A stretch of 64,000 bases of DNA. It comes from Chloroflexus aggregans DSM 9485. GTDB taxonomy: Bacteria; Chloroflexota; Chloroflexia; Chloroflexales; Chloroflexaceae. The position numbers were made by a program, and so were the translations under genes. Within the stretch, counting starts at the first letter, position 1, and each line of letters opens with the position of its first letter. The stretch spans positions 2,369,353 to 2,433,352 of the forward strand of contig NC_011831.1 in assembly GCF_000021945.1 (NCBI RefSeq), given 5' to 3'. Positions 705 through 21,217 of this stretch are shown piece by piece. The notes under the pieces were generated by a model. The model searched no databases, was not told the DNA's origin, and saw only the letters and a list, made by a program, of their open reading frames with translations.

Positions 705-2543
705 ATGCCGATCCGTCTGCTCGATGAAACGATTGCTGCCCAGATTGCTGCCGGCGAAGTGGTCGAACGTCCGGCTTCCGTTGCCAAGGAGCTGGTCGAG
801 AATGCACTCGATGCCGGTGCGCGCCGGATTGTGGTCGAGGTGCGGGGTGGTGGGCTGCGTGAAATTCGTGTGCAAGATGATGGCTGTGGTATTTCTGCCG
901 AGGAGGTTGAGTTGGCATTTGCTCGTCATGCGACGAGTAAGTTGCACTCTGCCGACGATTTGTGGGCCATTCGCACGCTTGGTTTTCGTGGTGAGGCGTT
1001 GCCGAGCATTGCGAGCGTTGCCCAGGTGATCTGTGTGACCCGCGTCGCCGATGCCGAGTTGGGGGTTGAACTGCGGATCGCCGGTGGTGAGGTGCAGTCA
1101 CGTTTGCCGTGTGGTTGCCCTGCCGGCACGACGATTACGGTGCGCAATCTGTTCTACAATACGCCGGTGCGGCGCGAGTATCTCCGTTCGGAAGCTACCG
1201 AAACCGGTGCCATCAGTGCAATCGTTCAGCAGTACGCTCTTGCCTACCCAGAAGTGAGTTTTAGCCTCGTGATCGATGGGCGGTTGGCATTTCAAACGAC
1301 CGGTGATGGCGATTTGCGCGCGGTGGTAGTTGAGCTGTACGGTCTTGCGGTCGGGCGAGCCTTGTTGCCGGTGCAGGCCGAAGTCGGTGATGGTGAATTG
1401 TGGGTGGCAGTGAACGGTCTGATCTCGCCGCCCGACCTGACCCGTAGTTCGCGAAGTTATCTCTCGTTCTTTGCTAATCGGCGCGCATTGCAACCGCGCG
1501 GGGCCTTGGCGGCTGTGGTAGAGAATGCGTACCATACGATGCTGATGAAGGGTCGTTTCCCCATCGCGATTATCGATCTGCGCGTGCATCCTGCTGCCAT
1601 CGATGTGAATGTTCATCCAACCAAGAGCGAAGTCAAGTTTCGCTATCCGGCCCATGTCCATAGTGTGTTGGGGCAGGCAATTCGCGATGCGCTGATCAAG
1701 GGGAGCGATATTCCGGTGTGGGAAGCTCCCGATCCGGCGACAGCTCAGCGTCGATTTGAGCTGCGTCGTCTTGGTCAGGAACAGGCAAGCTCACCGGCAA
1801 CCTGGGGAGTAGGTGCTCAAGCATGGGATCGGGAACGCGCGCACTGGGATGTCGGTACACCGGTTTCGCGATCTGAGCCGTCGTTGCTGGTGTCACCGGT
1901 TGCAGTACCCACGTCGAATACTGCTGTACCTACACCAGATGCTTCATTTGCAACCTCATCATCGGCCTTACCACCGTTGCGCGTGGTGGGGCAAGTTGGG
2001 TTGACGTATATCGTGGCGGAAGCACCAGAGGGGATGTATCTGATCGATCAGCACGCTGCCCACGAGCGAATTACCTATGAGAAGTTGATGAATCAGTACG
2101 CTCAACGTGCAGTTGAGTCGCAGCAGTTGCTGATTCCGCAAGCGGTTGAGTTAAGCCCGGAAGCGAGCACACTTTTGGTAGGTAATGCCGAGAAGTTGGC
2201 CGAATGGGGGTTTGCGCTGGAGCCTTGGGGAACCGGAGTGTTGGTGCGGGCGATACCGGCTACTCTGCCACCCGACGAGCTAACACAGGCGTTGCACGAG
2301 GTAGCCGAGCGGCTGGCCGGGCGCGGTGGGAGTAGTCCGCTCGAGTGGCGTGAAGCGATGTTGATTACGTTGGCCTGCCACACTTCGGTGCGCGCCGGCC
2401 AACCGCTCTCGCACGACGAGATGCGTCATCTGCTCCGCCAACTTGAACAGTGTGTAAGCCCGCGCACGTGTCCGCATGGTCGCCCGACTATGATCCTGAT
2501 GACACCGGCTCAGCTCGAACGGCAGTTTGGTCGGCGCGTGTAA
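705..2543 (+). CDS. mutL: DNA mismatch repair protein MutL
   Basis: A full-length MutL of 612 residues. The N-terminal GHKL ATPase has AAGEVVERPASV, LVENALDAGA, DDGCGI and GFRGEALPSI; the linker (about 340-420) is Ser/Pro/Thr-rich; the C-terminal dimerisation domain follows. The DQHAAHERITYE motif beginning at Asp448 fits the DQHA(X)2E(X)4E endonuclease signature and CPHGRP is present near the C terminus. This should therefore be an endonuclease-proficient MutL, as in bacteria without MutH, rather than an E. coli-type protein. MutL couples MutS mismatch recognition to strand incision. The start gives the standard MPIRLLDETIAAQIAAGEV N terminus. A repeat array follows the stop codon directly. 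Confidence 0.97.
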   Translation: MPIRLLDETIAAQIAAGEVVERPASVAKELVENALDAGARRIVVEVRGGGLREIRVQDDGCGISAEEVELAFARHATSKLHSADDLWAIRTLGFRGEALPSIASVAQVICVTRVADAELGVELRIAGGEVQSRLPCGCPAGTTITVRNLFYNTPVRREYLRSEATETGAISAIVQQYALAYPEVSFSLVIDGRLAFQTTGDGDLRAVVVELYGLAVGRALLPVQAEVGDGELWVAVNGLISPPDLTRSSRSYLSFFANRRALQPRGALAAVVENAYHTMLMKGRFPIAIIDLRVHPAAIDVNVHPTKSEVKFRYPAHVHSVLGQAIRDALIKGSDIPVWEAPDPATAQRRFELRRLGQEQASSPATWGVGAQAWDRERAHWDVGTPVSRSEPSLLVSPVAVPTSNTAVPTPDASFATSSSALPPLRVVGQVGLTYIVAEAPEGMYLIDQHAAHERITYEKLMNQYAQRAVESQQLLIPQAVELSPEASTLLVGNAEKLAEWGFALEPWGTGVLVRAIPATLPPDELTQALHEVAERLAGRGGSSPLEWREAMLITLACHTSVRAGQPLSHDEMRHLLRQLEQCVSPRTCPHGRPTMILMTPAQLERQFGRRV

Positions 2544-2549
2544 ACGCGC

Positions 2550-3145
2550 TGACGCAAAGGACGGTAACGCAAAGACGCAAAGGACGGTAACGCACAGAAC
2601 GCCACCCGTAGGGGCACGGCACGCCGTGCCCCCCCACGCCAAGACCGTAACGCAAAGGACGGTAACGCAAAGACGCAAAGGACGGTAACGCACAGAACGC
2701 CACCCGTAGGGGCACGGCGATGCCGTGCCCCCCCACGCCAAGACCGTAACGCAAAGACGTTAACGCAAAGGCGCAAAGGACGGTAACGCACAGAACGCCA
2801 CCCGTAGGGGCACGGCGATGCCGTGCCCCCCCACGCCAAGACCGTAACGCAAAGGACGGTAACGCAAAGACGCAAAGGCGCAAAGGACGGTAACGCACAG
2901 AACGCCACCCGTAGGGGCACGGCGATGCCGTGCCCCCCCACGCCAAGACCGTAACGCAAAGGACGGTAACGCAAAGACGCAAAGGCGCAAAGGACGGTAA
3001 CGCACAGAACGCCACCCGTAGGGGCACGGCACGCCGTGCCCCCCCACGCCAAGACCGTAACGCAAAGGACGGTAACGCAAAGGACGCAAAGGACGGTAAC
3101 GCACAGAATGCCACCCGTAGGGGCACGGCGATGCCGTGCCCCCAC
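2550..3145. repeat. Six-unit tandem array of ~98-107 bp hairpin repeats
   Basis: The segment CGCACAGAACGCCACCCGTA recurs at about 2591, 2689, 2787, 2894, 3001 and 3100 (period 98, 98, 107, 107, 99). Each unit contains GGGGCACGGC-gat-GCCGTGCCCC or a variant with a shorter centre, a near-perfect 10-bp inverted repeat, followed by one or more copies of a CGCAAAGACGCAAAGG-type motif. Length differences come from gain or loss of the CGCAAAG pieces. Long frames across it are repeat artefacts, not genes. It fills the convergent gap between mutL and the C45 gene, so the hairpins could also end transcription from both sides. Confidence 0.9.
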
Positions 3146-3205
3146 GTAGGGCACAGGCCGCGAAGGCTACCACCTCCTCAATTTGCACGCCGGCCACGCT
3201 CCTCG

Positions 3206-4486: not shown

Positions 4487-5653
4487 TCACGCACACGGTG
4501 CTACTGCACGCAATTGCGCGACAAGATCGGGCAACAGTTCGAGCAAGGTCTCGATCTGTTCGGCGGTGGTATGACGACCTAGCGAAAATCGGATCGAGCC
4601 ATTCGCTTCTTCGGGCGAAAGTCCCATCGCCAACAGGACGTGCGAGGGTTCCAGTGAACCAGATGTACAGGCGCTGCCTGAGCTGGCGCAGATGCCGCGC
4701 TGGTCGAGTAAGAGCAAGAGACTCTCGGTTTCAATACACGCAAAGCCGAGATTGACGATACTCGGCAATCGACAGGTTCGGTCGCCGTTGAGCCACGAGT
4801 GCGGAATACGCTGCAATACGCCACCGATCAGTCGCTCACTGAGTGTACGTAACTGATGGACATACTGTGCTCGCTCACGCTCGGCAATCGTTAACGCCGT
4901 TGCTAATCCGACAATGCCGGCAATGTTCTCTGTCCCGGCTCGCCGTCGGCGTTCTTGAGCACCACCGTTGATCTGCGGCACCAGTGGTGTGCCACGGCGC
5001 ATGTAGAGTACTCCCACTCCCTGTGGACCGTAGAACTTATGGGCTGTCAGACTGAGTAAATCAACACCAAGCGCTTGCACATCCAGCGGCAATTGGCCGG
5101 GGGCCTGCACCGCATCGGTGTGGAATAACACCCCATGCTCGTGACAGATGGCGGCCAGTTCGGCAATCGGCTGGATCACTCCCGTCTCGTTATTAGCGTA
5201 CATCACCGATACTAATGCCGTTTCGTGACGGATAGCAGCGCTTAGATCGGCAGGGTTGACCCGGCCACTCCGGTCGACGGGGAGAAGGGTCGCACGAAAC
5301 CCTTCATACTCCACAAGGTAATCGATCGCGTGCAAGACAGCGTGATGTTCAACGGCACTACTGATCACGTGCGTCTTCCCGTGCGCACGTAGTGCCATAG
5401 CGACACCCTTGATCGCCAGATTAATGCTCTCGCTGCCGCCACCCGTAAAGACAATCTCCTTCGGTTGGCAGCCCAAGACGAACGCTACTTGTTCACGGGC
5501 ATCGTCGAGCGCTTGCAATGCCGCTCGCCCTACTTGATGGATACTCGAGGCATTTCCACTCATCCCGCTCAAAAACGGCATCATTGCCTCGAGCACGCAC
5601 GGGTCGAGCGGTGTCGTTGCGGCATAGTCGAAATACAGGAGGTGCTCAGGCAT
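4487..5653 (-). CDS. Cysteine desulfurase (NifS/IscS class V aminotransferase)
   Basis: The product starts MPEHLLYFDYAATTPLDP, the classic N terminus of IscS/NifS proteins. A longer frame to 5683 adds ten atypical residues and would overlap the upstream stop, so the ATG at 5653 is chosen. PLP-binding lysine motif is SLTAHKFYGPQGVG; the persulfide-forming loop is ICASSGSACTSGSLEPSHVL; HTDAVQAPGQ is also conserved. It removes sulfur from cysteine for Fe-S cluster, tRNA or cofactor sulfuration. It lies 10 bp after the Csx15-like gene and is probably co-transcribed. The isc/suf/nif branch cannot be decided; no scaffold gene is nearby. Confidence 0.93.
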   Translation of the reverse strand: MPEHLLYFDYAATTPLDPCVLEAMMPFLSGMSGNASSIHQVGRAALQALDDAREQVAFVLGCQPKEIVFTGGGSESINLAIKGVAMALRAHGKTHVISSAVEHHAVLHAIDYLVEYEGFRATLLPVDRSGRVNPADLSAAIRHETALVSVMYANNETGVIQPIAELAAICHEHGVLFHTDAVQAPGQLPLDVQALGVDLLSLTAHKFYGPQGVGVLYMRRGTPLVPQINGGAQERRRRAGTENIAGIVGLATALTIAERERAQYVHQLRTLSERLIGGVLQRIPHSWLNGDRTCRLPSIVNLGFACIETESLLLLLDQRGICASSGSACTSGSLEPSHVLLAMGLSPEEANGSIRFSLGRHTTAEQIETLLELLPDLVAQLRAVAPCA

Positions 5654-5663
5654 ACACGACTCT

Positions 5664-6050
5664 CTACCGTGTGCGACGGGCACGAGCTTCGTCGCGTAAG
5701 ACTTGCAGGTTTAATATTTCGGCTACTTCAAAACGGGGTGGTAATGCCCCTGCAATCGGTCGTAGGCGTAACACGGGCGGAAAGTACCCCATACGACCAT
5801 GAAGTTCTGCCAACAGGGCGGCTGCACTAAAATTCAAAGACGGCAGATTGATCAAAATTTCTTCACTTTGCCACTGCTGCGGCGTCAATCCGGCAGCGTC
5901 GGCAAGAGCGATGATTTGTGGTTCGAGTGGTTGCTGCTGATCGATTTGACTGTTGATGTCGATTAGTTGAGCGATAGATTGACCGGTTAACGCAACTATT
6001 TGCTCTTGCTGAGCAGTTGTAATCGGATGCGCGTAATTTAAGACGATCAT
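5664..6050 (-). CDS. csx15: Csx15-like protein (CRISPR-associated family), orphan
   Basis: About 128 residues from the ATG at 6050 (a TTG two codons earlier is possible). The sequence [18 protein letters not shown], then [35 protein letters not shown] and [19 protein letters not shown] follows the pattern I recall for Csx15, a small soluble protein reported beside some type III CRISPR loci. The function of Csx15 is unknown to me, and I assign it from memory of the family rather than a search. No CRISPR array or cas gene is visible in the window. It sits directly upstream of a cysteine desulfurase on the same strand. Confidence 0.6.
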
Positions 6051-6141
6051 CTCCAAAAACCTTTCACTATGAAACTCTATTTTAACCTGACCTGACCAGA
6101 TGAGCGCCGGGATATACTAACTGCCGGCGCTGCATTTACCC

Positions 6142-20170: not shown

Positions 20171-21217
20171 AATAGGACACGGATTCACACGGCTTGGGAC
20201 GGATATGCACGGATCAGAAAAAACCGTGTGTATCCGTTCTCCTGCCCCCATCATCAAACCTCTGCATCCTTCGCGTCCTTCGCGTCTTTGCGTTCAAACC
20301 TCTTTGCGTCCTCTGCCCCCTTCGCGTTGCGTTGACCACTCTCTGCGTCTTTGCCCCCCTTTGCGCCTCTACGTTCACACAATAGGACACGGATTCACAC
20401 GGCTTGGGACGGATATGCACGGATCAGAAAAAACCGTGTGTATCCGTTCTCCTGCCCCCATCATCAAACCTCTGCATCCTTCGCGTCCTTCGCGTCTTTG
20501 CGTTCAACCCTCTTTGCGTCCTCTGCCCCATTCGCGTCTTTGCGTTGACCGCTCTCTGCGTCTTTGCCCCCCTTTGCGCCTCTACGTTCACACAATAGGA
20601 CACGGATTCACACGGCTTGGGACGGATATGCACGGATCAGAAAAAACCGTGTGTATCCGTTCTCCTGCCCCCATCATCAAACCTCTGCATCCTTCGCGTC
20701 CTTCGCGTCTTTGCGTTCAACCCTCTTTGCGTCCTCTGCCCCCTTCGCGTCTTTGCGTTGACCGCTCTCTGCGTCTTTGCCCCCTTTGCGCCTCTACGTT
20801 CACACAATAGGACACGGATTCACACGGCTTGGGACGGATATGCACGGATCAGAAAAAACCGTGTGTATCCGTTCTCCTGCCCCCATCATCAAACCTCTGC
20901 ATCCTTCGCGTCCTTCGCGTCTTTGCGTTCAAACCTCTTTGCGTCCTCTGCCCCCTTCGCGTTGCGTTGACCACTCTCTGCGTCTTTGCCCCCCTTTGCG
21001 CCTCTACGTTCACACAATAGGACACGGATTCACACGGCTTGGGACGGATATGCACGGATCAGAAAAAACCGTATGTATCCGTTCTCCTGCCCCCATCATC
21101 AAACCTCTGCATCCTTCGCGCCTTTGCGTTCAAACCTCTTTGCGTCCTCTGCGTTCTTCGCGTCTTTGCGTTGATCACTCTCTGCGTCTTTACCCCCTTT
21201 GCGCCTCTACGTTCACA
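20171..21217. repeat. Five-unit tandem array of ~212-bp repeats between pxpB and pxpC
   Basis: AATAGGACACGGATTCACAC recurs at 20171, 20381, 20594, 20806 and 21016 (period 210-213). Each unit holds ACGGATATGCACGG ... CCGTGTGTATCCGT, a 14-base inverted repeat with two mismatches around a loop with AAAAAA, then several TTTGCGTC/TTGCGTTC-type words and a C-rich stretch. Units are nearly identical; the fifth has lost a short piece. Frames across it are repeat artefacts. The last bases form the 3' end of pxpB. Confidence 0.93.

Follow-up and report, generated by a model that had tools for sequence, protein, structure and literature searches.

Csx15 ahead of a cysteine desulfurase gene throughout Chloroflexus, a probable damper of cA4 away from the type III loci

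Described Csx15 proteins and the locus of Chloroflexus aggregans

As shown in 2026, Csx15 binds cA4, acting both as a sponge and as a slow cleaving enzyme for this molecule (PMC13148439). Chi and colleagues showed that its dimers form head-to-tail stacks around cA4, in an oligomerisation that is specific to cA4 (PMC13148439). The orphan PfCsx15 binds cA4 specifically and sequesters it, and slow cleavage was found for CliCsx15, which in E. coli neutralises the immunity driven by cA4 (PMC13148439). About a quarter of the Csx15 proteins in complete genomes are unlinked to type III loci (PMC13148439, PMC12409355), and the authors propose that the family damps stray cA4, limiting autoimmunity, as opposed to shutting off the full response (PMC13148439). 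In their discussion, filament-forming CARF/SAVED domains are described as often driving an effector, and the paper states that no Csx15 was seen in phage genomes (PMC13148439).

The window, meaning the whole 64 kb stretch of DNA analysed here, is part of the complete 4.68 Mb chromosome of Chloroflexus aggregans DSM 9485 and carries a csx15 gene followed by a cysteine desulfurase gene, cysD (Table 1). The first-pass annotation had described a small Csx15-like protein running directly into a cysteine desulfurase, and both points agree with what follows, the two genes lying on the same strand with a very short gap and the profile search that it had proposed giving a clear Csx15 match.

Table 1. 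Positions of the csx15-cysD features within the window
Feature	Positions	Strand	Description
csx15 leader	6051..6120	-	TAAAAT, a candidate -10 element of one promoter for csx15 and cysD
csx15	5664..6050	-	Stand-alone Csx15 of 128 aa with a CARF/SAVED-like fold; predicted to bind cA4 as a sponge or slow ring nuclease; start ATG 6050, stop 5664
csx15-cysD gap	5654..5663	-	10 nt, csx15 stop to cysD start
cysD	4487..5653	-	Group I (IscS/NifS-type) cysteine desulfurase, 388 aa, CASSGSACTSGS catalytic-loop motif; start ATG 5653, end 4487

Regarding the small protein, the longest reading frame of its gene starts at TTG 6056, two codons more than the ATG version. Against NF040560, the NCBIfam model of Csx15, it scores 169.6 bits (E 3e-50), far over the cut-off of 35, and covers the model in full (positions 1-125 of 125). 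It is also matched by the PADLOC Csx15 model (1.2e-42) and by the 'csx15' chain of PDB 9teu (E 2e-17), and no Pfam model matched it. By sequence, it is a true and ordinary Csx15.

The AF2 model of this protein is confident (pLDDT 94.5) and presents the shape expected of Csx15, CARF-like with five main strands (residues 2-7, 27-33, 67-70, 95-100 and 109-115) and a C-terminal hairpin. SAVED and CARF chains head the structural list at modest Z, the best VIA-align rows being SAVED proteins with Z of 6-9, near the background level of the tool, among them the viral SAVED ring nuclease 9r8s (Z 8.0) and, in the same comparison, a SAVED-CHAT filament (Z 8.8). Foldseek against the PDB gave nothing significant, the solved Csx15 entries being absent among the matches listed. 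Because of this null result and of VIA-align values so near background, the assignment of a CARF/SAVED fold is based mainly on the sequence homology with 9teu. The residues H10, H86, R121, R125 and R128 are invariant across the 21 Csx15 proteins aligned, nearly all from Chloroflexota, and H10 and H86 correspond to H13 and H90 of Chi and colleagues in the register taken from the 9teu alignment. As judged from these alignments, the protein has kept every residue linked to the binding or cutting of cA4.

CysD matches PF00266 (Aminotran_5; 2.9e-87) and, barely over the cut-off of 304, the IscS subfamily model NF002806 (305.5 bits), and its translation contains the SSGSACTSG catalytic-loop signature as CASSGSACTSGS. 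It is the sole match below E 1e-60 in its own genome, and an orthologue is present in 19 of the 19 genomes of the order tested. The enzyme is of the same kind as the IscS/NifS group I cysteine desulfurases, having nothing unusual except the csx15 in front of its gene, and is of housekeeping type. For CysD, PADLOC reports matches to DndA and SspA models, as would be expected if it served DNA phosphorothioation defence with Csx15 as an accessory. However, the curated DndA model gives 367 bits, under its cut-off of 480, and dndC was not found in the genome; this scarcely credible identity was rejected, and the PADLOC matches are explained by the homology that group I cysteine desulfurases share in general.

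Conservation and origin of the pair

In a sample of 400 genomes from the phylum, Csx15 matches were found in 67, and about 70 loci from these genomes were compared. cysD adjoins csx15 in all seven Chloroflexus sampled and lies beside none of the other, non-Chloroflexus loci among them. A search of the genus found Csx15 in 8/8 species, the eighth, which we identify by contig position with the SKYG63 record of the genome contig set, having the csx15-cysD pair too; in the genome contig set, cysD occurs at 5 of 80 Csx15 loci, all five belonging to Chloroflexus. In 12 other genera, including genomes carrying both genes, csx15 was not found near cysD, and a conserved alternative partner of cysD was sought there and not found, its neighbours differing from genus to genus.

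In all eight species, the two genes have a conserved, operon-like arrangement, on the same strand, with a short gap (between 8 and about 20 nt in the genus-mates of the window) and beyond what synteny would give. Over about 9 kb to either side, G134 and the window have no flanking gene in common, yet the pair is intact in G134; in G118 the downstream flank has been exchanged relative to the window. The linkage is conserved within Chloroflexus only. The supposition of the first-pass annotation that the pairing might be conserved, together with the survey of neighbourhoods that it had suggested, stands for the whole genus and through rearrangement, and fails at the other Csx15 loci examined, all outside Chloroflexus. 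The novelty lies in this operon-like association with a housekeeping gene across the genus. Directly 3' of cysD, two Chloroflexus species carry on the same strand what looks like an inserted two-gene unit, an ATPase gene (AAA_15/AAA_21-DUF3696) and a gene of no assigned family encoding 171 aa (L038:6849-8752 and L041:5243-7113).

Regarding expression, TACAAT is located just 5' of csx15 in six of the seven species compared, the window having TAAAAT instead, and these motifs would be consistent with a single promoter serving csx15 and cysD; the automatic consensus promoter scan called no promoter at csx15.

Between species, csx15 has a small dN and a dS that is saturated in most pairs, for which reason its dN/dS is numerical for 3 of 21 pairs only, being about 0.04-0.05 where dS is finite; the median for cysD is 0.044. 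csx15 is under purifying selection, of a strength like that on cysD. A neutral passenger that landed once before cysD and was carried along with little function would agree with one origin in one genus and with five of the seven loci compared having a mostly conserved neighbourhood, but the purifying selection, with its low dN at saturated dS, largely refutes it. The presence of csx15 in every one of the eight species and the pair outlasting synteny in G134 also speak against this very unlikely explanation.

In a tree of 139 Csx15 proteins, built on few alignment columns, which limits its deeper forks, the cysD-paired members form one group with a single label change (SH-aLRT 96), joining the Roseiflexus-type proteins (support 96). 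The sister Csx15, at L043, is about 80% identical, and its gene overlaps a CARF-PDDEXK nuclease gene and adjoins a Cmr6-like stretch; the wider group around the Chloroflexus and Roseiflexus-type members is mostly type III-linked. In view of the sister locus and of this wider group, a move from a type III to a cysD neighbourhood would be the simplest reading, the pairing having been gained once, in the Chloroflexus ancestor.

Such a durable pair could also reflect cooperation, in which cA4-driven filaments of Csx15 bind, store or switch off CysD, coupling the alarm to the delivery of sulfur for Fe-S clusters and tRNA thiolation. The short gaps in 8/8 species and the persistence of the pair in G134 despite both flanks being rearranged would fit, as would the effectors often driven by filament-forming CARF/SAVED domains (PMC13148439) and the Csx15 domains that occur fused to another domain, Schlafen AlbA_2. 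However, the pairing is confined to one genus and one Csx15 clade, a distribution that argues against a general Csx15-CysD partnership, the cysD of 12 other genera has no adjacent csx15 even where the genome carries both, and CysD is of housekeeping type, all of which renders cooperation improbable. Csx15 as an effector, whose cA4-driven assemblies would act on the co-produced CysD and throttle or redirect sulfur delivery to Fe-S clusters and tRNA thiolation, is quite improbable, nothing found here requiring a direct effect on CysD. A functional link of Csx15 to sulfur transfer is unlikely; an association so long and close with a single enzyme could have a meaning beyond a common transcript.

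Type III CRISPR systems around the Csx15 family

No CRISPR-like array was found in the 64 kb window, nor any cas or CARF gene by tblastn with the cas/CARF proteins of Csx15 loci as queries, as the first reading of the sequence had stated. The csx15 of the window is not inside a type III locus, the nearest over-cut-off Cas10 being about 1 Mb away. Tandem repeats at 2543-3182 and 20260-21217 of the window were considered as CRISPR arrays and rejected; they are dispersed tandem repeats of ACGCAAAGG-like units, and ACGCAAAGG-like words recur at L053:1905-1997, near a type III locus.

A search for type III loci elsewhere in the genome, also proposed beforehand, found two, located about 1 Mb or more from the window on the same chromosome and having a Cas10 gene with GGDD each. 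L053 is a Csm-type locus with Cas10, Csm5 and two CARF-HEPN proteins, and L054 is III-D-like, with Cas10, Cas7, a CARF-HEPN protein, a CARF/WYL-type protein and a Csx3-AAA ring nuclease; as judged from their sequences, both loci are cyclase-competent. The Csm-type locus is closed by two tandem, related CARF-HEPN (Csx1/Csm6-like) genes (L053:14488-17428).

Across the phylum sample, an over-cut-off Cas10 occurs in 63 of the 67 genomes with Csx15 and in 54 of the 333 without it (Fisher p about 1e-35, kinship ignored), Cas10 matches under the Pfam cut-off, which probably include other cyclases, having been excluded from this main test. Type III genes are present at 90 of 152 Csx15 loci, and CARF effectors are near 26 more. 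All seven well-assembled Chloroflexus have an over-cut-off Cas10, and the eighth, the MAG G400 (82% complete), has csx15 and sub-threshold Cas10 matches only. Besides its cysD-paired copy, the Chloroflexus genome G052 has a second Csx15 (L063:9880-10257), located in a III-B (Cmr-type) locus that also contains Csx1, Csx3 and CARF genes.

The orphan position of csx15, the quarter of the family that is unlinked to type III in complete genomes (PMC13148439, PMC12409355) and weak cyclase-like matches elsewhere in the genome might suggest that the protein has turned to a non-CRISPR cyclic nucleotide, the product of another cyclase of defence or stress, its linkage to CysD being incidental. This is unlikely, however, given the Cas10 of all seven well-assembled Chloroflexus, the invariant cA4-site residues and the orphan PfCsx15, which still binds cA4 specifically (PMC13148439). 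Among the roles put forward in the first-pass annotation, nucleotide signalling was right in kind, as the Csx15 family binds cA4 (PMC13148439). A non-CRISPR job, sulfur transfer and a stand-alone defence or stress unit are not supported, given the two GGDD type III systems of the genome, the very strong co-occurrence with Cas10 across the phylum, the invariant cA4-site residues and cysD, present in every relative tested and unaccompanied by Csx15 outside the genus.

Regarding mobile elements, csx15 was found neither in the plasmid collection nor in the GenBank phage collection. The IMG/VR contigs L212, L213, L214, L215, L216 and L217, classed as viral, carry Csx15 genes (e.g., L213:5004-5381), and no cas genes are present within the flanks examined; L213 has baseplate-wedge and sigma-factor-like matches, and L215 has primase/helicase matches. 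These IMG/VR genes are candidate phage-borne cA4 quenchers.

Probable role and comparison with known systems

The best explanation, with a probability of about 0.76, is that csx15 encodes a protein acting in trans on cA4, as a sponge or a slow ring nuclease, and that the gene moved once to a position before the housekeeping cysD, where it would serve steady damping. The biochemistry of the family, the retained residues and the SAVED likeness of the AF2 model lead to the expectation of such an activity in trans. Csx15 dimers would stack head to tail around cA4 and sequester it, and cA4 would probably be cut slowly via the motif-I histidine H10 and the second histidine H86. The target would be the cA4 from the two type III systems elsewhere in the chromosome, stray or leftover molecules being damped. 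In the common ancestor of Chloroflexus, csx15 would have been placed once ahead of the IscS-like cysD, and co-transcription with it would give a low, steady and infection-independent expression, which suits the idea of Chi and colleagues of clearing stray cA4. By analogy with PfCsx15 and CliCsx15, the only members for which cA4-specific binding with oligomerisation is known (PMC13148439), binding and cleavage of cA4 may be expected of the window protein, and we infer co-transcription, constitutive expression and the lack of a physical link with CysD. Counting against this explanation, the III-D-like locus L054 has a ring nuclease of its own, Csx3, and G400 has csx15 without an over-cut-off Cas10.

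Read in this way, the locus would be a clear example of a quencher of CRISPR signalling that has left the defence locus and become fixed genus-wide before a housekeeping gene. The pairing agrees with the proposal that Csx15 limits autoimmunity by damping stray cA4, and renders that proposal testable. It also brings the caution that 'orphan' csx genes need not have lost their CRISPR role, as the partner systems can be elsewhere in the genome.

Comparing the window protein with the known systems, CliCsx15 (WP_069809204, PDB 9teu by residue register; PMC13148439) belongs to the same family and aligns with it over residues 3-128 (E 2e-17); both have the motif-I histidine, the second histidine, an aromatic residue before the last strand and the C-terminal arginines. 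CliCsx15 is located within a type III-A locus, whereas the Chloroflexus csx15 is unlinked and ahead of cysD, and the motif-I loop of the window protein, NYAHP, is one residue shorter than the NFSGHP of CliCsx15. PfCsx15 (WP_191946534; PMC13148439) is similar to the window Csx15 in being unlinked to CRISPR genes and in keeping the family-conserved residues; it is described as a sponge that cleaves cA4 little or not at all, and the available part of the paper mentions no operon partner (PMC13148439). CbCash (PDB 9ylu, 9ylv and 9ylx) has a 297 aa chain in which an added N-terminal domain precedes a C-terminal Csx15 domain (E 1.1e-16), whereas the window protein consists of nothing but the Csx15 domain. 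In a Chloroflexota genome of small size, a gene resembling CbCash, with Schlafen AlbA_2 joined to a C-terminal Csx15 domain (L109:2070-2957), adjoins a Cas10 locus. Finally, AcrIII-2/Crn5 and other SAVED proteins have a related fold (9r8s, Z 8.0; SAVED-CHAT, Z 8.8; both near background), but with about 10% identity over the structural alignment, and they are larger chains, compared to the dimer of small chains of Csx15.
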